Assembly (NCBI RefSeq): GCF_910596095.1
Contig: NC_056538.1
Coordinates: 33,056,422-33,120,421, forward strand
Length of the DNA stretch: 64,000 nucleotides
Direction: 5' to 3'
Origin: Thunnus maccoyii
Lineage: Eukaryota; Chordata; Actinopteri; Scombriformes; Scombridae
Shown: positions 39,490 through 64,000 of the stretch, one piece after another
Layout of the letters: every line of letters begins with the position of its first letter
Numbering within the stretch: the stretch's first letter is position 1
Translations under genes and position numbers: made by a program
The notes under the pieces: model-generated
The model's database searches: none
The model's input: only the letters and a program-made list of their open reading frames with translations
Told to the model about the DNA's origin: nothing

Positions 39490-40400
39490 TGTCCTGTTCT
39501 TCCATGGTTTGAGCTGAGGTGACAGCATGATGCAGCCATGTCAGGATACTGAGGCAGAACATGATTCACATATTTTCAGTCCAACACTTTTGTTTATGAC
39601 TAAATACCTGCAAAACTAATAACGGTACCATGAGTTCAAGTTGATAAACATGGTAAACATCAGCATGTTAAGACATATAGACGTTAGCATTAAGGTCAAA
39701 GCATCACTGTACAGCTTCACAGAGCTGCTAGCATGACCGTAAACACATAATGCCTCTTCACTCTGTGTGAGGCTGTCTGAGACAAAAGTTGACAATCATG
39801 AGAGAAACATGGTGAAATCTTTGGTCATCGATCCAAAACACTTTCCTAGATCTCACTAAGAAACTCAAGGTTTGGAGACCAAAGAAAGCCTGACTGCTGC
39901 TACGAATCATGACTCATAAGTGCCATTTTTTTTTAAAGTCTAAGAGGAAACCACTCCATCTTCTTCATACATCCATGGTACACACAAACCAAAAGGAAAG
40001 ATTAGAAGTTTGTGTGACTTTGCTGAATTTTTAAACATCAGAGCTGCAGATGGATGACGAGCTGACTTTTTTCTGTTTCCGTCGTAATTTGATGATTCAT
40101 CTCACAGTTATCTCATCTATACAGTGTAACATGCAATAAACTCACACCATCATTACTGTTGCACAATCTAATGACACCTTAAGTCTTGTTTTCCTTTCAG
40201 TTTTCCTTGTTTTCATACTTGAACTACAAAAGAATAATGCTGCCAAAAGTACCTTCAGGTATATTGTTTAAATCATTCATTCATCAATCGTTATCAGAGT
40301 TTTTTTTAAAAGGTAAAATGTTGTTTTTGCTGTAGCAGCGGCCCCTCCTTCCTGCACCTATATGTCATCTACAGCCTGATCATTTTACCATCATGACTTT
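39490..40400. other. Non-coding stretch, no gene seen
   Basis: No coding signal or recognised repeat before the left edge of the first duplication copy. Confidence 0.4.
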
Positions 40401-41099
40401 TTTAACATGTTTACATCTGGCCACAACTCTACAATCACTTGAAATTTACTTACTTAAGTTTTGTTCAAACATTGTTAAAATGACTTTGCATGTTTTATGT
40501 CTCATACTGAACTGTCACCTGACCATATCGCATCATCTCTCATTAGTCTCTTACACAGAGAGGAGCAGTTTATCTAATGATCATGAGAACATATATAACA
40601 CCATCCTGAGATAACACAACTCGTTAGGTTGAAATCATGAACTAAATGTTGCTGTGTTCATGTTAGTGAATGTAAAATAAAACACCAACAATAAACACTT
40701 CTTACTTCTTAGAAGTGTATGTTTTAAATCTTGAAATATGTTCCACACAGATTTGAAGCATCAGTCACATGATCACCACACAGTTCAACACATGTAAAGT
40801 CACATTCAATTTTAGGACATTTTAAATAAAAATCTACATGAGAGTCGGCAGGTATTGTAGAGAGAACGCAGTCCAGGATTGTTTCTTTCATCTAAATGTT
40901 CATATTATTCCTTTCAGCTCATGTTTTCTCTGTCCTCTCCCTGTCCCGATGTTTTATTTTCCCATATTGTATTAAAAATCACCAGTCAAACCTCTCTGAG
41001 GAAATACACGACAAATTAATAAAACTATTTCTGAATATTTACAAGTAAAAAAATCTAATGTTAGCACAATAGAAGTACAAAGAACAGATGGCAGTTTAC

Positions 41100-41185
41100 C
41101 TGCAGCACTCACCTGTCTGCGTGTCAGTCAGTGTGGACTTCTGATGGTAAAACTACCAGCTTTACGACTTCCCTCTAGTCACATC
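41100..41185 (-). other. Candidate first exon of P2RY14-like gene (copy A)
   Basis: Minus strand: 'gtccacactgactgaca' then CAGACAG|GTGAGT (donor after 41113), with an alternative CTGCAG|GTAAAC after 41100. The same block is present upstream of both GPR87-like genes (55.2 and 63.3 kb). It is about 4.7 kb upstream of the acceptor at 36365-36364. No in-frame start, so probably 5' UTR. The upstream limit is not determined. Confidence 0.45.
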
Positions 41186-42249
41186 AGGAAGCACAGCAAA
41201 GAGACACAAGAGGGAGGGGGAGGAAGCAGAGCTGCAGAACAACATTGATGTGGTTATAACTGTGTTTCGCCGCTGGTCATTTGCAAGTCAAACACACACA
41301 CACACACAAAAACACAGCTGGTCAGATCTCTGTTCAGAGAGTGATGAACAGGTCAGATTTTCCACTGGAGACATTCTCTCACTTCATGATGTATGTGCTG
41401 AGGATTGAAAGTTAAATAAAGTTTAGTCACTATCTTTGTCTGTCTGCTGTTTTCTGCCGCTGACAGAATTTATTACGACACTGAATGTAAAAAGAAAATT
41501 TGGCATCCACATATTGAATTTATGTCCAACGGTGTCTGATCTGTGCTTTTCTGTAAATAATGGATGACGGTGTGTTTGAATGCATTGGTGGTTGTATGTA
41601 GAGCTGCAATGGTTATCTGGTTATGTTGTGGTTATCTGCACAGTTCAACGCTGAGTCATCATGTTCAAAACTCTTCACACAGTCGACACAACAACAACGA
41701 CAATTATGGATCACAAACAAGCAACAAAACATTTGACATGTTTACATCCTCACTTCTAAACTCTTCAGTTTATGTTCATACACTAACATGTATTCATATG
41801 GATCATAACCACACTGAAATACATCTTTATTCAACCAAAAAAACAAGACGTGCTGTCAGAAATAAAGCCCACTGAATGCTTTCTGCTGCATCTCTATGAC
41901 TCATTTCCTGTAGATACACTGTAGTACGTTCTATAGATAGCTACACATCTGACTTTATTTACACTATATACACATTTATAACACCATCAACCATTAAAAA
42001 CTACATATACACAATAAAACAGTGATGTAACTTCACAGACGGCCATAAAAAGATCCTCATGTGCTGCCTGTTGTCAGTGTTTTTATTTCAGTGTGTCTGA
42101 TTGACACATGAGTCGTTGTGTTTGTGTCTTTTGTGTGAGTCAGTGTTGAATCATACAGGAAACCAATCATTAAAAAACTGTAATTAATTACAGCAATGCA
42201 GAACGGCTAATAACTGCTGTTACAATGACATATACTACTGACCTATAAT

Positions 42250-43570
42250 AATTGTGACAAACATGGGCTTGCCCTTTCTCTAACAGAAACAGAGCGGGAA
42301 ATATCCTTCAGATTTCTTGCATGCTGGTAACAACCTCATCTAGCTGAGACTGCTATGAAGTGTGGGTTGTGGTTCTCAAGCGCAGATGCTAACAGACCAA
42401 CCACACGATGTTGAAAATCCAAACCACTGCCATTACAGATTTTCTCGACAGCTTACACACTATAACTGGATCTGTTAACTAAACATCCCAACCCATGATG
42501 CCATCTACCAAAAGACAAACCCATTTTCCAAAACTATAACAACTATTCTCCTGTTTTCACTCATGTGCTCGTTTAGAAAGCGCTCATATTCAGTGTTATT
42601 AACTCAAGTCATCACAGCTGGAACCCAATTAACACACCGTTCCCCAGGTGGAAACACTGAGAGTCACAACACACCAATCAGTAGCTCAGGATAGAGAGAT
42701 AACAGGGTCATGTGTTCGCATGTTTTGGAACAACGGATCCACAAAGACCTGAAGCAGAATAAATGTGATTTGTTTCTTTATGCAAACTGTTTTTTTTCAT
42801 TGGTTTATATTGGTAAGTACATGGAAATGATTTTACTGTATTCAACGTTCTTTATCAGTTGCATATTTTTACAGTACATTTACTTTTTCACTCAATTTCA
42901 GATTAGTACAGTACACTGAGAAATTAAAAATTCTGAAAATGTATCTTTATATTTTGTTCATGGTGTAAAGAGATTGTTCTTGGAGGAAAACCATAAGCAC
43001 CATCATTCATTGTAATAACAGGTTTTTACAGTAGTGTTTTGAATGGATCTCACCACTGTGTAATGGCTGTTTTGTAGTGTTTGTGTATTTAATGGCTTTT
43101 GTGTGATGTCTGAAGGCAAAGTTTGGTTTAGATGGAAGGTTACATGGTTTTGACATGGAAGTTTGAAGTTTATGAAGGTGAGTGTGCAGTTATGCATTTC
43201 CGTTTAGAGTTTTGACAAATGGAGCATAATTTCAAGAAATGTGTCTTAGCAACCGAGAAAAACTGTAAATCCACATTCTAGACATAAGCAGTCACGGTGT
43301 ATAGGGTATGTAACCATGGTAACAGGCATGCGCATCAGCGCGTGAGTTACATGGATTTCCCCCAAACAATCAGAGTGAAAAGCAGTTAAAATAGCACTTT
43401 GTTGTGCTTGTGTCAGTCTGTGTATTTGAGCAGTTCCTCAATAACTGAGTGAAACGTAATGAGCACAAAGTCATTATTTCCTGTTTCTACCTGTCTGTCA
43501 TTATTCATAATATCAGATCAACACTGTTTCATTTTAACAAGAAAGTAACAAAAATTTTACTTTTCCTTTA
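42250..43570. other. Non-coding part between duplicated blocks
   Basis: No gene seen. The equivalent in copy B (56.3-57.97 kb) differs because it holds a (GA)n tract and a nested transposon instead. Confidence 0.45.
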
Positions 43571-45529
43571 GTGCCACTCTGCCATGACTTGGGGAGAGAC
43601 TGGAGGGTAAAGAGGAGGTTTTTTGAAAAACAAACAAACAAAAAAAAAACAGCTGCTGCTGGAAACACTGAGACTGAACCAGACAGGTTCTGTGTAAAGA
43701 TTGGAGGCTAAAAATAGAAGTATATTAAAAGTGCAGAAAATCGACAACAGCAGGCTGATCTGTGTGATGAAGGGAAATCTGTCAGAGCAGTTTTAGCAAC
43801 AACATTCCTGGTTTCACCTGATGGAGGAAGTTTAGCTCGAGGGATTCTCCCCAGCTGAGCTGCAAGCAGGAAGAGAGCAGATATAGTAGTTATCAGTGGT
43901 ACTTATAGAAGTACTACAAATGCTAATGGTAAGTGTTTCAAATCATTCCTATAATCATGTTTGTGTGCTGCCCTCAGGTGGTCACAGTGTGCATCTAAGC
44001 CACTGTCATTGTAATGTTTTATTTAGAAAGTGTTGACAGGAAGTGTTAATATCTAAGTGGGTCTGGCTTTATATTTTATTACTGCTAAATTGTCAGTAAT
44101 ACATTTATAATCATCTGTCAGTGCTGCCCTCAGGTGGTCACAGTGCATTACTACATCAGTCATAACATTTATTTTGAACATGTGTTAGTGCAGTCGCACA
44201 TATTATTACTATTATTATTATATACAGTATGTATATTCAAAATATAAAAGCACAGTGCACTGGTTGAATATGAGAATGAAAATATTTTATAAACACATCT
44301 GTGGAATAAAAACACAAACAACACAGTATTTTCTGCTGATATTACCATCCATACAATCACACCAGCTTGTGTTGTCTCACTGCACAAATGCTAATATTTC
44401 ATTTATTTGATGAGTCTTGACCTGTGCAGAAGCAAAAAGTTGAACAGTTATTTACAGGGTGCTTCATTTAATGAGACTAATCAGTCGTTTAAACCTTCCT
44501 GTGAGCCTCTAATATCATATATTCTCCATTTAATACATCAGTTCTGCTGCATGTACAAATAACAACCAAACATGCATCTGTAGTGGAGATCAGAACAATG
44601 TGCTATTAACTTTTTATATCACATTTAAACAAATATTACTCAAAAAATCTATGATACTTTCAGTGTGGAGAGACTGAAGACTGGAGAGATTATAGAGCAA
44701 TATTTCTTTTCTGGGTGTCCACACTGAGAAAGGATTACTGTATTTTATAATAAACTGAATTAAACTTCACTGGAGCCATGTTTTAAAGAGCTTCAGTGTG
44801 GCCAGATTAGGCCACTTTCTATTTAATTGGGTGGGTTAAAATTCTTTTTCTTTCCCTTCCTTTTTCCTTTCTCCCCTGTCCATTGGTTGTTCAACAATAC
44901 AACATAAAACTGAAACTATGTGAATGCTACTCTAATATTTACTCTTTATTTACTACTGTACAAACATATGCATTTATTTCAGTCTAGAAAATATCACATC
45001 ATGACACAAAAATAACGAAAGAATTGTCAAAAGCACTTAAAACATTTATCTCTAAACTAAACACATCCTGACCTTCACACATGATGCTGCAGAATCAACT
45101 GTGAAGAAGACTGACCTCCTCTCTCTCTCTCTGTGGAAGAGCATCGCATTCACTAAAGAAAAGACATGGAGGCCTTATTTGTGATTATAACTCTTAATCA
45201 CATAAGTCATAATTTACTATTTTTCTCATGATAATTACGAGTAAAGTATGCTGTATTATTTTGTTATTTTGACAAGTAGGTGTAAATTGTGACCATAGTA
45301 CACCTCATCTGGTCAACATGAAATTTTGAACAAACACACCTATCAACATGTGTGTAATAAATAAAGCAGCAAATTAAATAAAATAAATCTGTTTGCAGGA
45401 GCAAAATAGCTGAAATTCCTAATAAGGTCACAGAATCTGATGAGTCACTGAATATTCTGTAACACCTGAGCTCATAATTATGAGATACTAAGTCATAAAT
45501 GTGAGATATGAAAGTCATAATTAGGTCAG

Positions 45530-45535
45530 TTTATT
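45530..45535 (-). terminator. Possible polyadenylation signal, gpr87-like A
   Basis: AATAAA on the minus strand, 33 bp past the stop codon. It is conserved at 60024-60029 in the second copy. That is very close to the stop, so a more distal signal may be used instead. Confidence 0.35.
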
Positions 45536-45568
45536 TTTTCTTTGATGAATGCAGTGCGCTCTCATCTC

Positions 45569-46600
45569 CTAAGTTTTGCTGAGAGTCACAGCGGTGGTCT
45601 TGATTCTTCTAATCCTCCTTTTTCTGGACAGTTTCCTCAGCAGTGACTCTCTGAAGGTTCCGCACATCAGGAAGTAGATGATGGGGTCGAGGCAGACGTT
45701 GAGTGCTGACAGGAAGAGCGTCCCCTCCTTCAGCTGGAACAGCAGGTAGCGACTGGTCTGGCTGAAGCCTGACTCTGGCATGAGAGTGTACGGCACACGG
45801 CAGACGTGGTACGGCACAAAGCAGATGAAGAACACCACCAGGATGCTGAAGATGCTACAGTGAGACTTGCGACAGATGTTGCTGCTGTCACGGCGCACAC
45901 GGCGGTATGACTGGTAGATGTGGCGGGCGATGGAGGCGTAGCAGAAGACAAGAACCAGCAGCGTCACCCAGAAAAGGGCCATGCTGAAGATGATGGAACC
46001 CCTGTGCCACTGCAACCCCAGCGGCGTTTTCAGCTGCTTGCAGTGACGCCAGTTCTCCTCATTAGCTGGGCGGCTGGTCAGCACGGCGTTGGGCAGGAAA
46101 CAGAGGAGGAAGAGGCTCCAGGTGAGGAGCGCCAGCCCCTGGGCGAAGCAGGCATTCTGCAGGACGTGCAGCAAGGACACACCACCCAGCCTGGACATGC
46201 AGGAGCAGGAGGAGGATGATGTGTGTCGGACAACCTTCACGTACCGCTCCAGGCTGATGAGCCCCATGAAGAAGATACCAACATACATGGAGGAGAAGAA
46301 GAGCACAGCAGTGTAGCGACAGATGATCACATGCAGGCGCCAGCCGCCCAGACCCAGTTGAGCCGCCACCCTGAAGGGGAAGGAGAACAACATGAGGAGG
46401 TCAGCCACCACCATGTTCTTCAGGTAGACCACCAGCCCCGAGTCACTGGGCACTCTGAAGAAGATCCAGGCGGCCACACCATTGAGGGAAACACCCACGA
46501 TGCAGATCACAAAGTAGAGTGATGGTAGGACCTGCTTGGTGAAGAGACTGCTGAAGTCTGATTGGTTGGTTAGGCGGTGGGTGGAGTTGAGGTGATCCAT
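45569..46600 (-). CDS. gpr87: GPR87-like receptor, copy A
   Basis: 343 aa in one coding exon. I chose the ATG at 46600 because it follows a TTTTCAG acceptor by 2 bp; the frame is open farther upstream, but that part is intron. Sequons N5 and N12. TM1 has LNGVAAWIFF and TM2 YLKNMVVADLLMLFSFPFR. Cys94 (CRYTAVLF) and ECL2 Cys187 form the conserved pair, and ERY is at 118-120. ECL2-TM5 has CKQLKTPLGLQWH, TM6 FVPYHVCRVPYT, TM7 NVCLDPIIYFLMC. CRYT, the CR in TM6, and the lack of N-terminal and ECL3 Cys fit GPR87 better than P2RY12/13/14, although the TM5 end (SIARHIYQSYRR) recalls P2RY13. GPR87 is a P2Y12-group receptor, reported to respond to lysophosphatidic acid. Odd: ICL2 is about 15 residues longer than in human GPR87 and Ser/Cys-rich. 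A P2RY13/14-like co-orthologue cannot be excluded. Confidence 0.85.
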   Translation of the reverse strand: MDHLNSTHRLTNQSDFSSLFTKQVLPSLYFVICIVGVSLNGVAAWIFFRVPSDSGLVVYLKNMVVADLLMLFSFPFRVAAQLGLGGWRLHVIICRYTAVLFFSSMYVGIFFMGLISLERYVKVVRHTSSSSCSCMSRLGGVSLLHVLQNACFAQGLALLTWSLFLLCFLPNAVLTSRPANEENWRHCKQLKTPLGLQWHRGSIIFSMALFWVTLLVLVFCYASIARHIYQSYRRVRRDSSNICRKSHCSIFSILVVFFICFVPYHVCRVPYTLMPESGFSQTSRYLLFQLKEGTLFLSALNVCLDPIIYFLMCGTFRESLLRKLSRKRRIRRIKTTAVTLSKT

Positions 46601-46919
46601 CCCTGAAAACACACACAGTTTGTACATAAAGATGAGGTACAGTCGGCTGTACGTGCAGATTCTCCACCAGGGGGAGCTCTTTCCCCTGTTCTGTATTCCC
46701 ATTTCAAACGATATCTTCAGTATTACATAACAAAGAAACACAGGACTCTCCTGGATAATGTAACGATCCTATAGGTGTTAGCTGGGAGTTTATACATTGT
46801 GATATGTTGTATCTTTGATATGAGCACATTCTTTTGACCAGATTTATGATAATGATCTCTGCTGGACATGATAGGCAGCTGATTATGAAGATTTAGCTGG
46901 ACTTAGTTTCATACATGTG

Positions 46920-47010
46920 TTGTAACATCTATTATTACAATTACAATTAAAGCTGCAAGCAGTGTTGGTCGGGACCTCGCACTCTGGCCTGTCGCGATCA
47001 GATCATTTTG
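46920..47010. mobile_element. End of 'ctgcaagcag' dispersed element
   Basis: 'aaagctgcaagcagtgttgg' is the end seen at 20195. The sequence at 47070-47160 is the reverse complement of 49855-49945, so this and the 49.84-50.53 kb piece are two oppositely oriented copies of one element. Confidence 0.6.
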
Positions 47011-47404
47011 CTTTAAAAATGAGGGATATTTCTTACTAGTGTGGTGTGCTTTTATTTTGAAAGTTTGAATGACATGTGTACTGTCAGGTGTGTAGAGACA
47101 ATAAGTAACTGCAGCTGGACACAGAAAAATACTCATATATTTGAATGGAGAGTGTGAGCGAACCCACACCTTTTTGAACATTTACTGCTTCCACAAAGTT
47201 TTAGATACAAACTTCATTTGAACTTTAAATGAGTCACGAGACTTTGACCTACAAATCTTGAATTAACATGTTTTTTCTATCTTTTACTGTTTTTGAGATA
47301 TTAGAGTGTGAGTTTTTAAGTCTTTTCTTGCTCCTCCTGTGATTTTATAATGAGTGTGTATTGCAGAATGTTTCACAGCACTGAGGGAGTGACATCACCA
47401 GGAG

Positions 47405-47804
47405 CAGTTGGAGAGGAGGATTTTAGAGTACGCTTCTTGTGAAATCTCATAAATCCCATGACTTTGGCCAAATCTTACATTAAAAATCATAGTAGAAGGA
47501 AATTTCATTGCGAATCCATTGATACAAGTTTGAAACTTTGTAATAACTCAAACAGTTTGGATTTTATAAGCCAGTGCCACATCACCCTTACAATGTAAAG
47601 CAATGGAGAGGCATGACCTTTGTGTGAAACAGAAGCTTCTGACGTCTAAACTATAAGTCTGACCACTTTCAAACCTGTATCAATGGATTCGCAATGAAAT
47701 TTCCTACAAAAAAATATGATTTTTAATTTAAGATTTGGCCAAAGTAATGGGATTTATGGGGAGATTTCACAAGAAGAGTGCTCTGAAATTCTCCTCTCCA
47801 ACTG
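47405..47804. repeat. 400-bp palindrome (foldback)
   Basis: Left-arm phrases 'cagttggagagga', 'cttgtgaaatctca', 'ggccaaatctta' and 'aaatttcattgcgaatccat' reappear as reverse complements in the right arm, ending 'tcctctccaactg'. The centre is near 47605. There is no ORF. It sits in a region of mixed repeats, so it may be the inside of a larger foldback transposon. Confidence 0.85.
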
Positions 47805-47859
47805 AGAGGGAGAGAGAGGAGGGAAGAAAGGGGGGGAGGGGTGTGTGGCACACACAGTG

Positions 47860-49830
47860 GAGGCTGGTCCATAGAGGCAGAGGAGGTTGATCCTCCTCTA
47901 TTTTTTGAGAGGCAAGAGGGAGATTAAAATATAAAAAAGAATATTTGGTTGAAATAAACCATTACCAAATCTCAGTATTATTTACAACATATTTTTTCTC
48001 TCCTCTTTGGAAGAGACACATAAAATGATGCTCCAAGAGAGGACGGCCTCCCTAACCAATCAACAACCAGAATGCAATACTGACATTGAGTTGGTCCAAT
48101 GATAGTTTCCAGAATTCATCTGCAATTCTCTCCACTGTAAGGCAGAGTAGCAGCAGTAGATAGCTCCTTGCGTTAGCCAATTCAACAGTTAGTGTTGTAG
48201 CAGCCTGAAGGACTCTTTATACATCCATGGAAGGGCTGTCAAGGACTGTTGTTAAGCTAATGGGAGAAATGATCTGGACTGTGCAGCCCAGCAGCAGCAG
48301 GACACTGCCAGGGAGTGACTGGAGAGAGAAGCAAGGAGCAAGCTTGTTTGTCATTGTTGCTAATGATATCAGACTGGATAGTAAACAAACTGCTGTAAGT
48401 ACAAGTCATGGGCAGACAGCGTGTCGCTAACAGGGATTTTGAAGGGTAACGATCAAACCAGCATCTAACGGGTCCGAAGTGACATCTGCAGGTATGTTTA
48501 CATGCTGTTTGATGTGCTGCAGCTGAGCAGCTAACTAGCATCTAGCTGCTAACTGACGTTAGCGGTGAATGTTTGTTTGGTGGCTCGTTCAACAAGCTGC
48601 AGGACAAGACGTGTGTTCATGTTTCTAAGTTATCATCAAATTTTGATGATGTGGACAGAGGCTGTTTCATTCACATTCGTGTTTAAAAGAGGAAGGTATC
48701 ATGCCTCATATTGCAATAATTGAACATAGAATATTTCATATATTTTATTTTATTTTATTTAAACATTGGACATCTGAAATATTGTTTTCATTTAAGACCG
48801 TGAGCAAAAGTTCATTGCTGTTTCATGCTGTAAGTGTGTTACAGAATAAATAGAAAACAAAGGATTATTTGTCGCCCCCCTTTTTTTTGCTGATCCTAAA
48901 AATGATCCGATTCATGACCATGAGTTTTGTGATCAGTTTCACCCATAGTGTTAACATGTCAGCTTTGTAGACTATATTTTGTATGTCGTGCACATAGACA
49001 AGAGTGTGTAAGTCATGTATTTGATACATGCATTAATACTTTCTGATGTGAACCTACACTTTTAGATCTGTGAATGTTTTTAGTATTCGATCTTTCTTGT
49101 ATGCAGCACTGATTTGTTCCTGTATCACATCATAAGCTTTGTGGTACTTTATATATTTCTGTATACTAAGTAAATACACAGGAAACACGTGTAAATCATG
49201 TGACATCTTGTCTGTTTTTAATGAGAACATATATCTGTTGGCACAATAGAACAATACTATAAATTTGAATTTCACTTTGTTGGTAAAATCACACATCTGA
49301 ACCACTCCATGGCTAAAATTAGCTCTTCTTTGTTTAGAAACAATATGTATATGCTAAAAGTCTTTAAAGAAGCAGCCTTTACACCACTCAGGGCTTTTTG
49401 TTTTTGAAAGCAAATTGTTTTATCGGCATATAAAATTGCCCCCCACCCCTCTGATTTCATCAGGTGGGACAATGATATAGTTTGAGGCAGTTTATTGTTA
49501 GATTCCATGTTGGTTTTCCTCCTGTCCTCCCCAATTGTTTGAGTCACCAGCCACCACTGGTGTGGGGGTTGAATGCAGCTCATTTTTGTAGGATACAGCA
49601 GAAAGGCCTATATACATACAGTAGATTATATACAAACTTTGTATGAAGTTTGGTGTTATTATCATTTATTTTACAATAATTATAGGTCTTATATTTATAA
49701 TTCAGTAGTGAGGATGACCTATGAGGGGAAGGGAAAAAATGGAGTGAGGGTGACACTTTAGTGATAAAGTGTTGTAGAAAAATACTATCAAAACTAAAAT
49801 TTGTAGCTCTGTACTGCAGTTTTTCCTTTA
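47860..49830. other. Repeat-rich non-coding stretch
   Basis: 47.87-48.55 kb looks like dispersed repeat ('ggaggctggtccatagagg'). No gene or RT motif recognised. The rest is AT-rich without recognisable content. Confidence 0.4.
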
Positions 49831-49834
49831 TTAG

Positions 49835-50530
49835 GACCCGAGCACCTAGCGGTTCACTCACACTCTCCATTCAAATATATGAGTATTTTTCTGTGTCCAG
49901 CTGCAGTTACTTATTGTCTCTACACACCTGACAGTACACATGTCAATCAAACTTTGACCAGGTCATGTGGGTTAAAAGTCTTTACTTTTCTAAAAATAAG
50001 CTTGATGAAAATTAGGAAATTAATTTGTTTTACATACAAACTCATCAAGAGTTTTCAATTTACTAATTAAAATTCAAGTGAATGGGCCCAAAACTTGCAT
50101 CATTTTGATGACACAGGTGTGAGCAAGACAGACATGTCTCACCCTGCAGAAAATTCTCATCCTCACACCGTTGAGATTTGATGTTTCGCCATGACAGAGG
50201 AAGTTGCTATAACTTTATTGTAAATGCTCCAGTCTGCTGGAACTTTACATGTTTGATAAGACTCCCGGCCTGAACACGTCTACATGACAATATTCCATCA
50301 GTGATGCAAACTGGCTGAATAGCGCCCCCCATGAAATTTCAGCGAAGCAGCCCCAGCAGCAGGCAAAATAGTGGACAAAAGAAGTGATGTTTATGTCCTT
50401 CTTGCACTGTCTGAAAACAGCCCGGGTCTGAAGACATCTACATGCCCGTAACAGAAGCCCTTCGATTGCACTGCAGCCCGACGTGCGTGGAGGCGCGAGG
50501 GCCCGTTCAATGCTGCTTGCAGATTTAATT
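49835..50530. mobile_element. 'ctgcaagcag' dispersed element, inverted copy
   Basis: Runs from 'ttaggacccgagcacctagc' to 'aatgctgcttgcaga'. Both ends match, reversed, those of the 20.2-20.9 kb element. Internal sequence mirrors 46.95-47.16 kb. Non-autonomous. Confidence 0.65.
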
Positions 50531-50538
50531 TTGTTTTG

Positions 50539-50567
<29 letters not shown>
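50527..50567. repeat. (TTTTG)n microsatellite
   Basis: About eight TTTTG units, directly beside the LINE fragment. Confidence 0.95.
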
Positions 50568-50569
<2 letters not shown>

Positions 50570-52799: not shown

Positions 52800-54260
52800 T
52801 ATTCTATTCCCCACTAAGACTGTTGTCTATAAATGTGAAGCTCATATCAACAACACTGACTTTGTTTTACATGGATGTGCGAGAACAGACTCTGCAGTGA
52901 AGCAAGTTGCGAAGCAGGAAGTCATGTTTCAAAAGTCACACATCTAAAAACCTGCGATGTAGGTCGACAAAGATCTGGGGCCAAATCTGCTGATGTGATT
53001 AGGTGGAGATGAAATATAAGGTGAGAGAATTTTTTAGTAAAACATTGTTTAGGTTGATAACCAGCTACAATGATTGTGTGATATTTTCATTTATTTATTT
53101 ATTTAGTGTTTACATAGAGATCTGTAAAATGCCAATCAAAGGCGCATTTATAAACGTACCACTGGTTAATTACTTTCATGTCATTAATTTTATCATTCTT
53201 TTAATTTATGCAGGATTCAACACTTTATTTTGCTGTTAATATTCTTTTTATTTTATCCTTAGTTGTGTCACACTGTGTAAAGTCGGTTTAGATATGAGCA
53301 CTACAAAATGCTTGTCGGTTACATTTCTTAGATCACTGCCGACGGCGAACTGATATGAAAACAGCTGGTCCAGGACGTGTCTTCATCCATTTATGGCTCA
53401 TTGTGGAAGTGGAAATGAGTCTTGTGCACGTGAACCCAGTTTCATAATGACCGAGAGTTATAAAGCAGAACCATGTGTACACGGGGTTTTATAAATCTGA
53501 TGAAAAGAATGCGTCTGCATAGTTCTAGCTTTGTGCGTCTGACCCCTGAAATCTCAGCATATGCCAACATACTTACAATATGAAGCTTTCACTGTGACGT
53601 TTTTGAAGATTATTTTCATCCATAGTCTTCATTATACTCTGGGCAGAAGACTAACTCCATTCTCTACACTATGAAATTATTACTGTCTGATTGCATTTCA
53701 TAATCAAAGACAACCACACAAGACGTCACTGAAATCCTTTTTTCAGAATTAAGGTGATGTAATTTCCAACAAGTGCAGCCCAGTTTGTTTTAACAGTATA
53801 ATAAAACTTCAGAGACAAAAAAGTAGCCCCAGTTTTTGAACTGAAAACAGGATTACAACCTGCTATCACTCAAACTGATTGACTGATTTTAACACAAGAA
53901 GTAAAGATGAACTTAATCTGTTTTTTTAAAAATTAGTTGTTGCTGAAGGTTTATTTGGATCAGTGTTGTAAACACAACTGTAAAACTGATCAAAACACTT
54001 CAATAAATTGATCATATTTCAAAAACTGTTGAGAACCATTAAACATTACAAACATCTTGAAATTGTATTGATGTTACAAATATCTTTTCAATGTATAAAT
54101 GATGCAAATGACTGCATAAAATAACTTTTAATCACCACTTTATGAGCTCACCTAGTCTAACATCCTCTGTAACCTCAGTAAAAAGTACGATATTTCCCTC
54201 TGACATGTATCATCAGGTACGTTGTTTAAATTATTCTGCCTGCTAAATTTACTGGCAAGA
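52800..54260. other. Non-coding stretch, no gene seen
   Basis: AT-rich, with no recognised motif or repeat. Confidence 0.4.
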
Positions 54261-54269
54261 GATTTTATG

Positions 54270-54555
54270 TGTGCTTCAGGGTTAATTCTATAATGCACCA
54301 TAGAGGACATAGAGACAACCAAGCAACAACCAAACATGGACCAATTTGTGGAAATGGGACATGCCTCTGAACTATTATCAGCAGCACACACCAGCTGACC
54401 TACATTGCACAACCAGGGTGAGCAAAACAACGGAAACATATTTTGGAAAGAGTTGGTTCAAAAAAAGCCCCTCTGAGTGACACCTAAAAGCACTTACCAG
54501 ACATGTCAACAACAACACCCACAATATCCGTGATCACATACCCAGGAAGCATCTG
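54270..54555. repeat. Second copy of the 52.43-52.60 kb repeat
   Basis: 'aaaacaacggaaacatattt', 'aaaaaaagcccctctgagtg' and 'cacccacaatatccgtga' are nearly identical in both copies, 1.95 kb apart in direct orientation. The second copy abuts the left edge of duplication copy B. Confidence 0.8.
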
Positions 54556-55178
54556 AGTTAGTCATATCAAGTGGCACATTTACAGTCTTTTTAGCATCAA
54601 ATTCCCTCTTTGTGTTTCCTCGGACAGTGTTTCCCTGTTGAGCTGCAGGTGGAAGTATAGTAACAAAAAGAGGGACTTTGGTACTAAAAAGACTGTAACG
54701 TTGAAAGATATCTACTAACCCGACAATAAGTTGTAGTCTCTAGAGGTCAGGAACCCTCCAGGTAGTCACAACATAAGTCTAAAGAGTTGCAGGATGATTA
54801 GTAGGACAAGAAAGAAGAAAAAAAAAAATGTTGTGCTGCACAAATTTGTGTTTTTCTCTAAAGACTTTTTTTCAGTAAAAGGTAAGTTAGTTTGACATTT
54901 TCTGACGACTAAAATTAGTCAAATGAAACAATCGGAGAAGTTTTGAGAGGAAAATAAAACTCAACCACTCATACAACCTGTGACACTGCAGCATTATAAA
55001 ATGTCACAAACCACTGACCTATATTAAAAGTACAATCTTGAACTCAAACGTGTAAAAAAAGTGTAGCCACACCTGCTGCTAGCGTTAAAACCCCAGGATT
55101 AAAAGCCCCCATCACATTAGATTGAACATGTCTAATGTCTAATATCAGTACAAGTACAAAGAACAGATAGCAGTTTAC

Positions 55179-55265
55179 CTGCAGCACTCATCTATCTTCA
55201 TGTCAGTCAGTGTGGACGTCTGGTGAGAAAACCACCAACGTTACAATTTTCCTCCACTCAATGCT
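55179..55265 (-). other. Candidate first exon of gpr87-like A (copy B block)
   Basis: Homologous to 41.10-41.19 kb. The donor used there (GTGAGT) is destroyed, so only CTGCAG|GTAAAC remains. An ATG in the block (ATGAAGATAGATGAG) would be out of frame with the receptor start after splicing, which suggests a short uORF. Pairing with the gene at 46.6 kb is inferred from position. Confidence 0.4.
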
Positions 55266-56345
55266 CACACCAGGAAGCACTGCAAAGAGACAGAGAGGCA
55301 GCGGCGGCAGGGTTGGGGGGTGCGGGAGGGGCGGGAGGGGCAGGTAGCACTTATGTGGTTATCTTGTGTTTCACCGCTGTTCATATATTTTGGTTTTGGT
55401 TTTTCACTGGAACTTTGTCTGTCTGCTGTTTTCTGCCGCTGACAGAATTTATTACGACACTGAATATAAAAAAAATTAAAATTTGGCATTCCCCTTATTG
55501 AATTTATGTCCAATGGTGTCTGAACTGTGCTTTTCTGTAAATAATGGATGACAGTGTGTTTCGTGGTTGTATGTAGAGCTGCAATGGTTATCTGGTTATG
55601 TGGTGGTTCTCTGCAGGGATCAATACTGAGTCCACCTGTTCAAAACTCTTCACACAGTCGACACAACAACAACAATTATGGATCAAACTGGGACACATTT
55701 GCATAGTTTTCACACAGAAAGCATTCAGTGACTACAGCCTTCAAATGTCCTCAATACTTTTCTCACTCAAACACAAACAAGCAACAAAACATTTGACATG
55801 TTTACATCCTCACTTCTAAACTGAAATACATCTTTATTCAATCAAAAAACAAGACGTTTAGTCAGAAATAAAGCCCACTGAAAGCTTTCCTGCTGCATTT
55901 CTATGACTCATTCCTGTAGATACACTGTAGTACGTTCTATAGAGAGCTACACATCTGACTGTATTTACACTATATACACATTTATAACACTATCAACCAT
56001 TAAAACTACATATACACAATAAAACCGTGATGTAACTTCACAGACAGCCATAAAAAGAGTTGTTGTGTTTGTGTCTGCTTCACAGAAATGCTAATAGCTG
56101 CTGTTATAATGACAAACCTTCCCCAATTAAACAAGAAAGTGTATTTCCTAATTACAAATTATTTTATAATGATGAAGTTCTCCTATGATAGTAAGTGCTT
56201 TTATCGTGACAAACATGGACTTGTTCTTTCTCTGATAGAGACAGAGTGGACAATATCTGCATATATCTGTATACTGATAATGCAAATTCTCAGGCAGAGA
56301 TGTTAAAATAAAACAGACCAACCACACGATATACATGTATATATG

Positions 56346-56346
56346 T

Positions 56347-56377
<31 letters not shown>

Positions 56378-56410
56378 GAGAGAGAGAGGGAGAGAAAGAG
56401 AGAGAGAGCA
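56346..56410. repeat. Imperfect (GA)n microsatellite
   Basis: GA repeats with a few AG/GG interruptions. Absent from the matching place in copy A. Confidence 0.95.
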
Positions 56411-56985
56411 ACAGTTAAGCAACAGTTCGAGCTGTTGCTTATCGAGGACATATCAGCATTCAGATTCTCAGAAAACAGGATCTTTGTTAGTCACATGCTC
56501 TGCATGCTTCATGCATTTTTAGAATAGTGTTATTTGGTATATGCTTACATATAATTTATAATATATGCATGTTCCATAAAACCAATGAAATGCTTTTAAT
56601 TTAAAATGAATATCATGTGTAGATTGCTGATACGATTGGAATAGAGACGACCTCTAGAGATGTAACTGAGCAGATTTTTATCTTCTATTGAAAGACACTT
56701 CTCATCTTTTTGGTCCTGTTTCTTCGTCCGTCCAAGGCTTGTCAACAACATTTTTAATAGGGCCCCTTGTTTTCTAATAATTCTCTACTATGTTAGAAAT
56801 GTTCATCTGTGGCCCTCAAGAGAGGAACCAGTGGTAAAATTGTTAATGCAGGAGCCGCCGTATCAGGGGAAAACCTAGAACGAGGGGCATGCCTACCATG
56901 ATGCTGGGGCTCTCTGTCAGATACTAACAAATCTCTATTATAACAAATTTCTTTAACACATTGTGATTCCACTGATAATATTAAG
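56410..56985. other. Non-coding stretch, no gene seen
   Basis: Present only in copy B of the duplication. No recognised motif. Confidence 0.4.
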
Positions 56986-57090
56986 TAGGGATGCACGATA
57001 TTGGATTTTTTGCTGATATCCGATATGCCGATATTTCAAACTCACTGTGGCCGATTGCCGATGCCGATATATGCACATATTTTTTTCCAG

Positions 57091-57350
57091 CTGGCTGAGG
57101 AGACTATTATATATGCAAGCTTAGATTGTACTAAGTATGATCAAGAAAGACAATATATGAAGGAAGAACTTAGGAAGACTGGAGTTCAGGAGCTCAGCAT
57201 TAAAACTTTAATGAACCTGCCAAGTGAGAGGAGCAGACAGAAGGATTAATGTGTAGGATTTAATCTCTGTCCACACTCCGGAGAAGAAGGTGGCGGTAAT
57301 GCACCTAATACGCTGGTTGCCAACTGCTGTTATAAACCAAAAAGAAGAAG
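57091..57350 (+). mobile_element. 5'-truncated LINE 3' end
   Basis: Starts with a frame reading DQERQYMKEELRKTGVQ, similar to the C-terminal Cys/His-containing region of fish LINE ORF2. It continues with 'aggtggcggtaatgcaccta' and 'ctggttgccaact', the usual 3' UTR of such elements, and ends in (GAA)n. Insertion within the hAT-like MITE explains the interruption. Confidence 0.55.
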
Positions 57351-57436
57351 TTTTTTGTTTTTTATTTGCACAGAGTGGTACATCCTGGCAGCCGAAGTGT
57401 TTCCAATCTGTGCAGCCAAACATAGCAGCTCCTCGA

Positions 57437-57604
57437 CGGTGTTTCCTCCACAGGCTGCATTTCACTCAGCCGCCCATCAGACCTGCTGCTTCTTCCCAAT
57501 TTAACCTGAATAACAAATCGGGGCTCGGCACTCAGGTTAGAGTGGGAAGAAGCAGCGGGTCTGACGGGCAGCTGAGTGAAGTGCAGCCTGTGGAGGAAAC
57601 ACCG
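57437..57604. repeat. 168-bp near-perfect hairpin
   Basis: The left arm 'gtttcctccacaggctgcat' through 'gctgcttcttccca' is complementary to the right arm, 'tgggaagaagcagc' through 'gcagcctgtggaggaaac'. The loop is about 45 bp. GC-rich against its surroundings. Confidence 0.9.
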
Positions 57605-57904
57605 GGACCGTCAGGGTGAAACAGTCCGTCGAGGGAAGCGCAGTCAGGCGCAGTCAGACATATCGGACTCTCATAATCGGCAGAATTCGCCAATGCTGAT
57701 ATTTCATTTTAGCGCTATTATCGGCCAATACCGATGATGTGCCGATAATATCATGCTCTCTCTCTTTATTTTATCTTATGTTTATTAATATTATCATGTG
57801 GGTTTATTTTCCATCTTATGTACATGTTTTTATATTCATTTTATGCCTTTTTTATGTGAATTTAGTAGTCTGAGACCAGAGATTGGGAAAGTGGTCTCAG
57901 ACTT

Positions 57905-57907
57905 TAT

Positions 57908-57950
<43 letters not shown>
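57905..57950. repeat. (ATT)n microsatellite
   Basis: About 15 ATT units. Confidence 0.95.
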
Positions 57951-57952
<2 letters not shown>

Positions 57953-58261
57953 GAATGACACATGTTCAATGTTGAAGTGCCACTCTGCCATGAATTGGGG
58001 AGGGACCGGAGGGTAAAAGGGAAGTATGAAGTATGGAAGTATTTTTTGTTTTTTGAGGAACAAAACAAAAACAAAAAAAAACAACTGCTGCTGAAGATTG
58101 GAAGCTAAAAATAGAAGTATATTAAAAGTGCAGAAAGTCGACAACAGCAGGCTGATCTGTGTGATGAAGGGAAATCTGTCAGAGCAGATTTAGCAACAAC
58201 ATTCCTGGTTTCACCTGATGGAGGAAGTTTAGCTGGAGGGATTCTCCCCAGCTGATATAGT

Positions 58262-58575
58262 CTAACACACATTCAATGACTGATGTAGTAACACATTGTG
58301 ACCACTGGAGGGCAACACTGATTATATGAGCACTGATGATTATAAATGCATTACTGACAATTTAGCAGTAATAAAATATAAAGCCAGATACAGTTAGATA
58401 TTAACACTTCTTGTCAACACTTTCCAAATAAAACATTACAATGACAGTGGTTTAGTTTCACACTGTGACCACCTGAGGGCAGCACACAAACATGATTATA
58501 AGAATGATTTGAAACACTCACCATTACTACCATCATTATGACTATCAGCATTAGTAGTACTTCTATAAGTACTTC
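58262..58575. repeat. Block inverted relative to copy A
   Basis: The reverse complement matches 43889-44165. 'gtggtcacagtg' near 'tgccctcaggtggtc' in A appears as 'gaccacctgagggca' here. The two 'ccctcaggtgg' sub-blocks also exchange order, as an inversion predicts. Confidence 0.85.
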
Positions 58576-58611
58576 TGATAAGTAGTGTAGTCACATATTA
58601 TTATTATTACC

Positions 58612-58615
58612 ATTA

Positions 58616-58651
<36 letters not shown>
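58612..58651. repeat. (ATT)n microsatellite
   Basis: About 13 ATT units. The matching place in copy A (about 44201-44222) is shorter. Confidence 0.95.
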
Positions 58652-58652
<1 letters not shown>

Positions 58653-60023
58653 ATACAGTATATATATTCAAAATATAAAAGCACAGTGCACCGGTTGAAT
58701 ATGAGAATGAAAATATTTTATAAACACATCTGTGGAATAAAAACACAAACAACACAGTATTTTCTGTTGATATTAGCATCTATACAATCACACCAGCTTG
58801 TGTTGTCTCACTGCACAAATGCTAATATTTCATTTTATTTGATGAGTCTTGACCTGCGCAGAGGCAAAAAGTTGAACAGTTATTTACAGGCTGCTTCATT
58901 TAATGAGACTAATCAGTCGTTTAAACCCTCCTCTGAGCCTCTAATATCATATATTCTCCATTTAATACATCAGTTCTGCTGCATGTACAAATAACAACCA
59001 AACATGCATCTGTAGTGGAGATTAGAACAATGTGCTATTAACTTTTTATATCACATTTAAGCCAATATTACTCAAAAAATCTGTGATACTTTCAGTGTGG
59101 AGAGACTGAAGACTGGAAAGATTATAGAACAATATTTCTCTTCTGGGTGTCCACACTGAGAAAGGATTACTGTATTTTATAATAAACTGAATTAAACTTC
59201 TTTTGGTGTCATGTTTTAAAGAGCTTCAGTGTGGCCAGATTAGGCCACTTTCTATTTAATTGGGTGGGTTAAAATTCTTTTCCTTTCCCTTCCTTTTTCC
59301 TTTCTTTCCTGTCCGTTGGTTCTTCAACAATATAACATAAAACTGAAACTATGTGAATGCTACTCTAATATTTACTCTTTATTTACTACTGTACAAACAT
59401 ATTTCTGAAGTTATATACATTTATTTCAGTCTAGAAAATATCACATCATGACACTAAAATAACGGAAGAATTGTCAAAAGCACTTAAGACATTTATCTCT
59501 AAACTAAACACATCCTGACCTTCACACACGATGCTGCAGAATCAACTGTGAAGAAGACTGACCTCTCTCTCTCTCTCTGTGGAAGAGCATCGCATTCACT
59601 AAAGAAAAATATGGAGGCCTTATTTGTGATTATGACTCTTAATCACATAAGTCATAATTTACTATTTTTCTCATCATAATTATGAGTAAAATATGCTGTA
59701 TTATTTTGTTATTTTGACAAGTAGGTGTAAATTGTGACCATAGACATTCAGATATTAAATACAAAAATGTTGATGTAATGGCAGAAACTTTGTACACCTC
59801 ATCTGGTCAACATTAAATTTTGAACAAACACACCTATCAACATGTGTGTAATAAATAAAGCAGCAAATTAAGTAAAATAAATCTGTTTGCAGGAGCAAAA
59901 TAGCTGAAATTCCTAATAAGGTCACAGAATCTGATGAGTCACTGAATATTCTGTAACACCTGATCTCATAAGTATGAGATACTAAGTCATAAATGTGAGA
60001 TATGAAAGTCATAATTAGGTCAG

Positions 60024-60029
60024 TTTATT
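60024..60029 (-). terminator. Possible polyadenylation signal, gpr87-like B
   Basis: AATAAA on the minus strand, 33 bp past the stop, conserved with copy A. Confidence 0.35.
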
Positions 60030-60062
60030 TTTTCTTTGATGAATGCAGTGCGCTCTCATCTC

Positions 60063-61109
60063 CTAAGTTTTGCTGAGAGTCACAGCGGTGGTCTGGATTC
60101 TTCTCCTCCTCTGTTTTCTGGACAGTTTCCTCAGCAGTGACTCTCTGAAGGTTCCGCACATCAGGAAGTAGATGATGGGGTCGAGGCAGACGTTGAGCGC
60201 TGACAGGAAGAGCGTCCCCTCCTTCAGCTGGAACAGCAGGTAGCGACTGGTCTGGCTGAGGTGTGACTCTTTCATGACAGTGAACGGCACACGGCAGACA
60301 TGGTACGGCACAAAGCAGATGAAGAACACCACCAGGATGCTGAAGATGCTGCAGCGAGACTTGCGACAGATGTTGCTGCTGTCGCGTTGCACACGGCGGT
60401 ATGACTGGTAGATCTGGTGGGCGATGGAGGCGTAGCAGAAGACAAGAACCAGCAGCGTCACCCAGAAAACGACCATGCTGAAGATGATGGAACCCTTGTG
60501 CCACTGCAACCCCAGCGGTGTCTTCAGCTGCTTGCAGTCCAACCAGTTCATCTCACTGGCTGGGCGGCTGGTCAGCACGGCGTTGGGCAGGAAACAGAGG
60601 AGGAAGAGGCTCCAGGTGAGTAGCGCCAGCCCCCGGGCGAAGCGGGCATTCTGCAGGAGGTGTTGCAAGGACACGCCACCCAGCCTGGAAATGCAGGAGC
60701 AGGAGGAGGATGGTGTGTGTCGGACGACCTTCACGTACCGCTCCAGGCTGATGAGCCCCATGAAGAGGATCCCAACATACATGGAGGAGTAGAAGAGCAC
60801 GGCAGTGTAGCGACAGATGATAACTTGCAGGCGCCAGCCGCCCAGACCCAGCTGAGCCGCCACCTTGAAGGGGAAGGAGAACAACATGAGGAGGTCAGCC
60901 ACCACCATGTTCTTCAGGTAGACCACCAGCCCCGAGTCACTGGGCACTCTGAAGAAGATCCAGGCGGCCACACCATTGAGGGAAACACCCACGATGCAGA
61001 TCACAAAGTAGAGCGATGGGAGGACCTGCTTGGTGAAGAGGCTGCTGAAGTCTGATTGGTTGGTTGAAGATTGGTTGGTTGGGCAGTGGGTGGAGTTGAG
61101 GTGATCCAT
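60063..61109 (-). CDS. gpr87: GPR87-like receptor, copy B
   Basis: 348 aa, one coding exon, with the same TTTTCAG|GG-ATG start context as copy A. It has five extra N-terminal residues (a duplicated TNQS-like stretch). N-terminal sequence is MDHLNSTHCPTNQSSTNQ. TM motifs (AAWIFF, YLKNMVVADLL, CRYTAVLF, ERY, PLGLQWH, NVCLDPIIYF) are as in copy A. ICL2 carries the same Ser/Cys-rich extension. Differences concentrate in the N-terminus, ECL2 (RPASEMNWLDC here, RPANEENWRHC in A), TM6/ECL3 (PFTVMKESHLSQ here, PYTLMPESGFSQ in A) and the C-tail (RKQRRRR here, RKRRIRR in A). It keeps an N-terminal Cys that copy A lacks; neither has the ECL3 Cys partner. The frame is intact, so it is probably functional. 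Confidence 0.85.
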   Translation of the reverse strand: MDHLNSTHCPTNQSSTNQSDFSSLFTKQVLPSLYFVICIVGVSLNGVAAWIFFRVPSDSGLVVYLKNMVVADLLMLFSFPFKVAAQLGLGGWRLQVIICRYTAVLFYSSMYVGILFMGLISLERYVKVVRHTPSSSCSCISRLGGVSLQHLLQNARFARGLALLTWSLFLLCFLPNAVLTSRPASEMNWLDCKQLKTPLGLQWHKGSIIFSMVVFWVTLLVLVFCYASIAHQIYQSYRRVQRDSSNICRKSRCSIFSILVVFFICFVPYHVCRVPFTVMKESHLSQTSRYLLFQLKEGTLFLSALNVCLDPIIYFLMCGTFRESLLRKLSRKQRRRRIQTTAVTLSKT

Positions 61110-62099
61110 CCCTGAAAACACACACAGTTTATACATGAAGATGAGGTACAGTACAGCTCACACAAAGTCAACGTCACACATGATTTTAGATGTGGAGAAC
61201 CTCAGAGAAGCAAAGCTACAAATATGTTCATCAGGCTGCAGATTCTCCACCAGGGGGAGCTCTTTTCCCTGTTCTGTATTCCCATTTCAAATTTTTCCCT
61301 AAACGATGTCCTCAGTATTACGTAACACAGAACCACGGGACTCTCCTGGATAATGTAACAATCCTATAGGTTTATGTTCTAAACACAAGCTTCAATTTTG
61401 GCGGACAGCTAAAAATACTACAATACCCAAGAGTCACAGTCACTGTTGCTATGGAGAAGATGCCAGTCAGAGTTATAATTAATTCAAACGACTTTATCAT
61501 TGCAGATGTGAACAAAATGCAGCACCGTAGTTGTTGTACATTTTTTGACTTTGTGGGATTTTCAATAAAAGCTTGTGTTCTGGCCCTGCCAGTTATTCAG
61601 TGTTTTTTGGTGACTCCTACTGGTCACCTGCCACGGTGCCGTGTTTGGGCATTGACTTCCTAGTTCCTGTGTGACAGGAAGTTAGCCTTTCTAGTTCCTG
61701 TGTAATATAAAGTTAGTCAGAGTAACCTGAAAATGGCATGTGTGCTCCAGTGAAGCTGATGTCTGTTCATCCTTTGCCATCCTTCTTTAATGGCCATTGA
61801 GAAGGCATTAGCTGGGAGTTTATACATTGTGATATGTTGTATCTTTGATGAATGATAGTAATAACTGCAGATACGAAGTGCAGTATCAGTTAAGGGGCAT
61901 ATATGTTTATTTTGGATACAGAAATACATTGTTGGTTATGAGGATGATATTGAAGTTGAACATCCTTAAAAAGACTGTGGTTTTGATGGGACAGAATAAA
62001 ATGGCGCTTGAGTTGGTCACACACCAATAAACTTGTGTCTGTTCCTTACTGCTCTGCAGCCATCCAGGACTGTGTAGCAACATTGCTACTGGCCCAGGT

Positions 62100-64000
62100 A
62101 CCCCTAGGCATCTGGCTACAACTCTACAATCACTTGAAATGTGCTCAAAATACAAATTTCTTCACTTACGTAAGTAATTACACAACTAACTTTCTCAAAG
62201 GTGTTAGAAATATTTTAACGAAGTTTGAAAAACTATCATGACAAAGAAATAGTTCCACTTGATTTTTTCACCTAAACAGGAGGAATAAATAAATAATCTT
62301 TCTGTTTTGTCCTAAATTTTGTTCAAACATTGTTAAAATGACTTTGCATGTTTTGTTGTCTCATACTGAACTGTCAGCTGACCATATCGCATCATCTCTC
62401 ATTCGTCTCTTACACAGAGAGGAGCAGTTTTATCTATTGATCATGAGAACATACATAACACCATCTTGAGATAACACAGCTTGTTATGAACTAAATATTG
62501 ATGTGTTCATGTTATTAACAGAAAATAAAACAGCAGGAATCGATTTAAACACTTCTTACTTCTTAGAAGTGTATGTTTTAAATCTTCAAATATGTTCCTC
62601 ACAGACTCTGCAGCATCAGTCACATGATCACCACACAGTTCAACACATGTAAAGTCACATTTCTATTCAATCTTTGGACATTTTAAATAAAAACCAATAT
62701 GAGAGTCGGCAGGTATTGTAGAATGAACGCAGCCTCCTGTTCATACTGGATATTAAAACATCCTTCAAATGTGCTTTGGAAGTGATGGAGGCCAAAATGC
62801 ACAGTGTGTCCACACAGTCATTTAAAAGTTGATGTGAATCTTCTATTCAGCTTCAGCAGTCTGAGTTAGTCATATCAAGTGGATATCTGCCACATTTACA
62901 GTCTTTTTAGCATCAAATTCCCTCTTTGTGTTTCCTCGGACAGTGTTTCCCTGTTGAGCTGCAGGTGGAAGTATAGTAACAAAAAGAGGAACTTTGGCAC
63001 TAAAAAGACTGTAACGTTGGAAGATATCTACTTGATTTGACTCATTTGGACGCTGAAGCTTCATATTAGCTTCAGATAAACTTACATTTTTGCACAGAAG
63101 AAGTAAGTTTAACATTTTCTGACCACTAAAATTAGTCAAATGAAACAATCTGAGAAGTTTTGAAAGGATAATAAAATCAACCACTCATACAACCAGGATT
63201 AAAAGCCCCCATCACGTTAGATTTAACATGTCTAATGTCTAATATCAGTACAAGTACAAAGAACAGATGGCAGTTTACCTCATCTATCTTCATGTCAGTC
63301 AGTGTGGACGTCTGATGAGAAAACCACCACCGTTACAATTTTCCTCCACTCAATGCTCACACCAGGAAGCACTGCAAAGAGACAGAGAGGCAGCGGCGGG
63401 GTGGGTGGAGAGGGGGGGAATTAGATGATTACGGTTTTTTCTGACTGGTTATCTGGTTATGTGGTGGTTATCTGCACAGTTAAACACTGAGCCATCATGT
63501 TCAAAACTCTTCACACGGTCAACAGTTATGGATCAAACTGGGACACATTTGCATAGTTTTCACACAGAAAGCATTCAGTGACTACAGCCTTCACATGTCT
63601 TCAATACTTTTCTCACTCAAACACAAACAAGCAACAAAACATTTGACATGTTTACATCCTCACTTCTAAACTGAAATACATCTTTATTCAATCAAAAAAC
63701 AAGACGTGCTGTCAGAAATAAAGCCCACTGAAAGCTTTCCTGCTGCATTTCTATGACTCATTCCTGTAAATACACTGTAGTACGTTCTATAGAGAGCTAC
63801 ACATCTGACTGTATTTACACTATATACACATTTATAACACTATCAACCATTAAAACTACATATACACAATAAAACAGTGATGTAACTTCACAGACAGCCA
63901 TAAAAAGAGTTGTTGTGTTTGTGTCTGCTTCGCAGAACTGCTAAACTTCCGTTATAATGACAAACCTTCCTCGATTAAACAAGAAAGTGTATTTCCTAAT
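62100..64000. repeat. Segmental duplication, copy C (cut by the window edge)
   Basis: Matches 40.41-42.2 kb of copy A and 54.54-56.16 kb of copy B, including 'ctacaactctacaatcactt', 'ttgttcaaacattgttaaaa' and the 63.3-kb first-exon block. Still matching copy B at base 64000, so it continues outside the window. Confidence 0.85.
63279..63365 (-). other. Candidate first exon of gpr87-like B (copy C block)
   Basis: Third homologue of the 41.1-kb block. A deletion has removed 'tgctgcag', so the donor is now GATGAG|GTAAAC. Lies 2.2 kb upstream of the receptor start at 61109. An ATG in the exon (ATGAAGATAGATGAG) would again be out of frame with the receptor. Confidence 0.45.

Follow-up and report, generated by a model that had tools for sequence, protein, structure and literature searches.

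Receptor genes at the locus

The window, by which we mean the entire 64,000-nucleotide stretch of DNA analyzed (positions 33,056,422-33,120,421 of its contig), contains a receptor at 6-9 kb, followed by a gene referred to here as the left gene and then by a trio of GPR87-like genes (A, B, and C), the outermost of which (C) lies beyond the window. The 7tm_1 domain scores above the Pfam cut-off in all three GPR87-like genes and in the last exon of the left gene.

The coding part of the left gene is split by two introns, and its coding exons span 28.1-36.4 kb on the minus strand. The first coding exon (36207..36363) has a TAG acceptor before 36363, an ATG at 36350, and the donor GTGAGT after 36207, and this donor is kept in all five aligned paralogues (5 of the 7 known). 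The TAG acceptor before the ATG is identical in the left gene and in 5 of 5 aligned paralogues, in an alignment that likewise took in five of the seven known, and is followed by AAC(A/C)TCCACAAACATG. The middle coding exon (35213..35473, minus strand), the upstream boundary of which was placed by eye, ends at a DRY-like motif (NR|Y), and the last (28106..28792, minus strand) contains the 7tm_1 domain. Fish receptors have gained introns, including a DRY intron, and novel introns occur in fish P2Y receptors (PMC3151243). The last intron of the left gene resembles these in falling inside a DRY-like motif, whereas the P2Y examples in the available portion of that paper are P2Y2, P2Y3L, and P2Y6, and not the left gene.

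GPR87-like A (45569..46600, minus strand, 343 aa) and GPR87-like B (60063..61109, minus strand, 348 aa) each consist of a single coding exon. The preliminary description predicted a further GPR87-like gene just past base 64000, and a third intact receptor frame is indeed present 4.7-5.8 kb beyond that edge (GPR87-like C, extended coordinates 68720-69766, with the frame at 68726-69766). In all three GPR87-like exons the acceptor TTTTCAG stands two bases before the ATG (TTTTCAG|GG in A and B), an arrangement that calls for an upstream untranslated exon. At the protein level, A and B are 91.0% identical, C and A 85.9%, and C and B 83.0%; the corresponding nucleotide identities are 94.2% (A-B), 90.9% (A-C), and 89.9% (B-C). 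NG86 estimates of dS are 0.092 for A-B, 0.176 for A-C, and 0.157 for B-C, and dN/dS across the three pairs is 0.41-0.60 by NG86 and 0.23-0.35 by YN00.

A protein search at 61% identity or above identified eight members of the left family, comprising the left gene and seven distal paralogues. This family is a locally expanded set of P2Y12/14-like receptors, represented in the window by the left gene. The closest solved relatives of the window receptors are P2Y14, P2Y12, and P2Y13. P2Y14 is the best solved-structure match in both cases searched, scoring 272 bits with GPR87-like A and 165 bits with the left gene, for which P2Y12 scores 155 bits, and no chain named GPR87 is among the 60 structure matches listed for either receptor. 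In a midpoint-rooted tree of 18 hand-chosen rows, none of them a GPR87 sequence, the P2Y12-like rows (the window receptors with P2RY12, P2RY13, and P2RY14) are split from the GPR34-like and P2Y1-like rows with support of 98/94. The tree took in five of the eight left-family members (those at 33.737, 33.756, and 33.788 Mb were omitted), and its 21.281 Mb row lacks one loop stretch. It gives an open node for the GPR87-like trio, the left family, and P2RY14, and the branch leading to the left family is long (1.28).

In mammals, the gene order is GPR171, P2RY14, GPR87, P2RY13, P2RY12, all on one strand. The order of receptors in the window would fit this arrangement, although such compatibility is not a test of identity. 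A search for the MED12 family returned six matches, all on a different contig, and was of no help in placing the locus. Judged by receptor content and gene structure, the genome is probably that of a ray-finned fish. In mouse, the P2RY12, P2RY13, P2RY14, GPR87, and GPR171 genes are clustered and P2ry14 has non-coding 5' exons, according to the accessible part of PMC10213973. The locus resembles this vertebrate cluster in its tandem minus-strand 7tm_1 receptors with P2Y14, P2Y12, and P2Y13 as solved relatives. However, 12 Mb of the same contig here separate the locus from the P2Y12-like and P2Y13-like genes (21.27-21.28 Mb), the GPR87-like gene is present in triplicate, and two introns interrupt the coding part of the left gene, which has seven distal paralogues. 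A fish receptor group, GPR206, has been described as having many duplicates and lying near GPR34, alongside a GPR87/P2RY14 group (PMC6504862, in its available text the one place where our literature search found GPR206). This much-duplicated group near GPR34/87/171/P2RY12-14 recalls the eight-member left family. Literature searches on gpr87/p2ry14 in zebrafish, teleost P2Y duplication, and the GPR171-P2RY14-GPR87-P2RY13 cluster returned no title on the arrangement described below.

Copies of the upstream block

Three copies of one block lie on the minus strand of the window: block A (41054..41219), 4.75 kb upstream of the first coding exon of the left gene (36363); block B (55131..55304), 8.5 kb upstream of GPR87-like A; and block C (63231..63396), 2.1 kb upstream of GPR87-like B. 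BLAST and profile searches thus confirm the preliminary description of the same 5' block at 41.1, 55.2, and 63.3 kb, and the minus-strand order agrees with its assignment of each copy to a different receptor. Its block size of about 87 bp plus flanks holds for the shared flanks and falls short for the core, which extends over approximately 165-215 bp. BLAST identities are 79% for A-B, 76% for A-C, and 94% for B-C, the last over a match of 215 bp. When a three-block profile was run against 114 kb around the window, blocks A, B, and C scored E values of 8e-61 to 4e-75 and no other match fell below E 0.6, so the likeness of the blocks is not a matter of chance.

The homology continues into the flanks in part. 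The stretch 40455..40871 near block A corresponds to 62313-62732 near block C with 87% identity, and these were the only two places matched in a genome search; 42251-42330 has counterparts at all three blocks (77-79%). The upstream flank of block A includes a dispersed repeat (41712..42129, at least 127 matches), which rules out the whole shared flank, with its repeat at ~41.71-42.13 kb, as a conserved control element. A repeat in the flank of block C (62733..63087) is partly present in the flank of block B (54548-54716) and has no match in that of block A, supporting B and C as sister copies. Immediately upstream of the exon, 46 bases are unaligned in C compared to 277 in B, and 49 in C compared to 390 in A; block C has lost its adjacent upstream sequence, which is much shorter than at A and B.

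Block A as the query in a search of the genome (782 Mb) returned the three blocks of the window, while a paralogue block as the query returned seven further block-length matches, all on the same contig as the window. The 28 other matches from the latter search are 33-40-base matches to the tail of the query. Since block A missed the seven distal blocks and the paralogue block missed the window set, the total of ten blocks is a lower bound. A same-strand block precedes seven of the eight left-family members, with no other listed receptor between, and its distance to the last coding exon is 5.8-12.3 kb. The remaining member, at 33.756 Mb, lacks a block, and no receptor is listed downstream of one block, at 33.392 Mb. 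The protein match at 33.756 Mb contains one stop codon, as does that at 33.788 Mb, a family member that does have a block. Of two stretches upstream of distal paralogues, one contained a block in the orientation of the gene (E 1.8e-9). Of three additional stretches picked by their distance from paralogues, two contained a block (E 8e-9 and 1.2e-8, with a 3-sequence profile), and the genome search later placed the block of the third paralogue 1 kb beyond its stretch. For the outermost gene, GPR87-like C, neither the profile in 24 kb of upstream sequence nor the genome searches with blocks turned up a copy.

Splice signals of the blocks

The exon in block A ends at 41113 with CAG|GTGAGT, and the donor G|GTGAGT is kept in all eight found blocks that are not upstream of a GPR87-like gene. 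Neither of the two blocks upstream of GPR87-like genes (B and C) has GGTGAGT. The conserved donor, together with the position of the block upstream of seven of the eight left-family members, makes the block the probable 5' untranslated exon of that family along with its control DNA. Block A, which would comprise this exon and adjoining sequence, is probably the genuine first exon of the left gene, and we infer that it is transcribed and spliced.

At the site homologous to the donor of block A, GT has changed to AT in both other copies: block B reads ATGAGT, and block C reads ATG followed by an 8-bp deletion. Positions 41113, 55179, and 63279, formerly treated as equivalent donors, are not homologous, as the true counterpart of the block A donor is the one reading AT in B and C. 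Positions 55179 and 63279 are instead the next GT downstream, with the sequences CAG|GTAAAC in B and GAG|GTAAAC in C. GTAAAC is present in A, B, and C and is missing at that place in all seven paralogue blocks (P1-P3 and the other four), which argues that it is not the ancestral donor. By a donor scoring matrix, the block A donor reaches 12.5 bits and is the strongest of three sites of at least 9 bits in 36364-45500, while the fallback GTAAAC donor, scored with the same matrix, reaches 7.6 bits in B and 6.5 bits in C. Sites scoring at least as high as the fallback, itself included, number 13 in the GPR87A region and 11 in the GPR87B region.

Sequence on the intron side of the donor is well preserved. 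The first 30-38 intron columns of B and C are 95-97% alike to A, about 45 bases of the presumed intron are conserved, and all ten blocks retain an intact GTTCTTTGT. Given this intron-side likeness and the intact motif, blocks B and C could retain regulatory activity. Upstream of the exon, CTTCCTG occurs in eight of the ten blocks and TTCCTG-like sites in most copies; the block motifs are putatively ETS-like and SOX-like. Relative to the seven distal blocks where these agree, B and C share seven changes, B alone has one, and A alone has one. A sign test of 7 versus 1 is weak (one-sided P 0.035), and neighboring changes may not be independent; an earlier count of the same kind, with three distal blocks only, gave 9 versus 2.

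Proposed duplication history and probable fate of blocks B and C

Blocks and receptors alternate along the locus in the order block A, GPR87A, block B, GPR87B, block C, GPR87C. The likeness over the final 75 exon columns is 97% for B-C, compared to 78% for A-B and 80% for A-C, so that the sister pair among the blocks is B-C; among the receptors it is A-B. The conflicting kinship of blocks and receptors, combined with the order of the locus, fits two staggered tandem duplications. Segmental duplication, as proposed in the preliminary description, is thus supported as the origin of the blocks. The simple triplicate of block plus receptor proposed with it is ruled out, because blocks and receptors have different outgroups and the outermost receptor has no block that could be found. 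In the first step, a tandem duplication would have taken the block exon along with the neighboring GPR87-like gene, and in the second, a staggered duplication would have copied the inner GPR87-like gene and the block upstream of it, an order of events that we infer from these relationships. Blocks B and C would accordingly be transplanted copies of a neighbor's first exon, carried as passengers to the GPR87-like genes.

Downstream of the receptors, all three copies show 96-97% likeness over a 650-bp stretch, while in the stretch adjoining it C is 84-86% alike to the other two. The high likeness suggests gene conversion or local constraint, and it blurs the age order of the duplications. The junctions themselves are unreadable because repeats cut up the upstream DNA of GPR87-like B and C. 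The receptor homology of C breaks 34 bases upstream of its acceptor, and this point was considered as a duplication junction and rejected, since a many-copy repeat starts there (extended coordinates 69805-70056); the upstream DNA of B also consists largely of repeats.

The reading that best accommodates these observations, and that we hold to be quite probable, is that the block serves the left family as its first exon and that the copies B and C, produced by the staggered duplications, most likely no longer act in this way. With the splice donor broken, the two copies are likelier to be leftovers than a shared working promoter. Of the proposal that three receptors share one first exon, the part concerning block A stands, given its conserved donor and position, and the parts concerning B and C do not, since the donor is destroyed in both and C has lost upstream sequence. 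The broken splice signals of B and C lend no support to a working first exon common to three receptors. It is unlikely that GPR87-like A and B have instead come to use blocks B and C as working first exons, spliced from the fallback GTAAAC donor to the acceptor just before the ATG, in which case the duplicates would have adopted the left family's expression pattern. The accompanying details, that splicing moved 14 bases in B after the donor mutation and that the outermost GPR87-like gene keeps its old promoter, are improbable to the same degree. Promoter capture of this kind is consistent with the upstream position and correct orientation of the blocks, where no receptor intervenes, with the TTTTCAG acceptor two bases before the ATG in all three GPR87-like exons, with the well-conserved intron side, and with the presence of GTAAAC in A, B, and C, where the 8-bp deletion in C spares AG|GTAAAC. 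However, an intact ancestral donor is absent from precisely these copies, the family's GTGAGT being lost from B and C alone. The fallback scores low (7.6 and 6.5 versus 12.5 bits), is not among the best sites of its region, and, by its absence from the seven paralogue blocks, is not ancestral, and block C is without its adjacent upstream sequence.

The conservation that reaches about 45 bases into the presumed intron, the invariant GTTCTTTGT in all ten blocks, and the TTCCTG-like sites upstream of the exon in most copies (CTTCCTG in 8 of 10) would also suit a block that is mainly promoter or enhancer and not an exon, in which B and C keep their role as DNA whatever the state of the splice site. 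We regard this as conceivable, if rather doubtful: the conservation is centered on a donor that is perfect in 8 of 8 family blocks, the first coding exon of the left family opens with a conserved acceptor, as fits an upstream exon, and the ETS-like and SOX-like readings are tentative. An origin of the blocks from an unrelated mobile repeat, near receptors by chance, is hardly credible. A dispersed repeat does occur in the shared flank, but it excludes the block itself, and the 3 + 7 block-length places share a single contig, where almost every one of them precedes a member of one receptor family.

In Drosophila yakuba, tandem duplications shuffle 5' exons and alter expression (PMC5460883), which is the closest mechanism found, as far as the accessible text of that study extends. 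As there, a tandem duplication has brought the 5' end of one gene near another gene; the locus differs from the account in that text in that the transplanted exon has apparently lost its donor. The kind of event is ordinary though instructive, a tandem duplication that relocates a neighbor's 5' exon. The locus offers a compact, datable case in which an untranslated first exon is placed before a different receptor and eight relatives in which the exon is intact allow its fate to be read by comparison. If B and C are used, neighborhood alone would have given a common promoter type to receptors that are about a third alike in sequence, and promoter capture would amount to a natural experiment, within one locus, on a promoter swap combined with a donor shift. 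If B and C are dead, the shared upstream block is of a kind that can mislead gene annotation. The locus also documents how a P2Y12/14-like family, with one conserved 5' exon, has expanded locally.

Conserved sequence in the block and downstream of the GPR87-like receptors

The motif GTTCTTTGT is unbroken in all ten copies of the block, the probable 5' untranslated exon of the left gene's family with its flanking DNA. It lies approximately 30 to 45 bases beyond the donor, within the presumed intron, and is a possible control element. A 650-bp single-locus stretch is present in three copies (window 44201-44848 and 58632-59282; 67099-67749 in window numbering extended past base 64000), 0.7 kb 3' of the GPR87-like stop codons. 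These copies share 96% to 97% identity across all three, compared with a lower 90% to 94% for the coding exon, while in the adjoining DNA the identity of copy C to A and B falls to 84% to 86%. Such likeness suggests constraint or gene conversion.

Related receptors

The left gene, a P2Y12/14-like receptor, has seven distal paralogues at 33.367-33.795 Mb of the same contig (sequence stretches L055-L066, L019, L021, L024, L030, and L032), in two groups of opposite orientation and each with coding introns. The left-family receptor at 33.756 Mb lacks a block, and the block at 33.392 Mb has no receptor assigned to it among those listed. An additional P2Y-like receptor of at least two exons (window 6056-6787 and 8600-8923, minus strand), possibly GPR171, forms a long branch in the tree.

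Repeats and LINE-like fragments

Long minisatellite-like arrays at window 14230-15460 and 17617-18097, detected as self-matches, have periods of 47 bases and multiples of 33 bases. Beyond base 64000, LINE-like reverse transcriptase fragments (L004:819-1679; extended 64.8-65.7 kb) match ALKBH8_N above the cut-off and RVT_1 below it. A 250-bp high-copy repeat (L004:5805-6056; extended 69805-70056) starts 37 bases upstream of the GPR87-like C acceptor.
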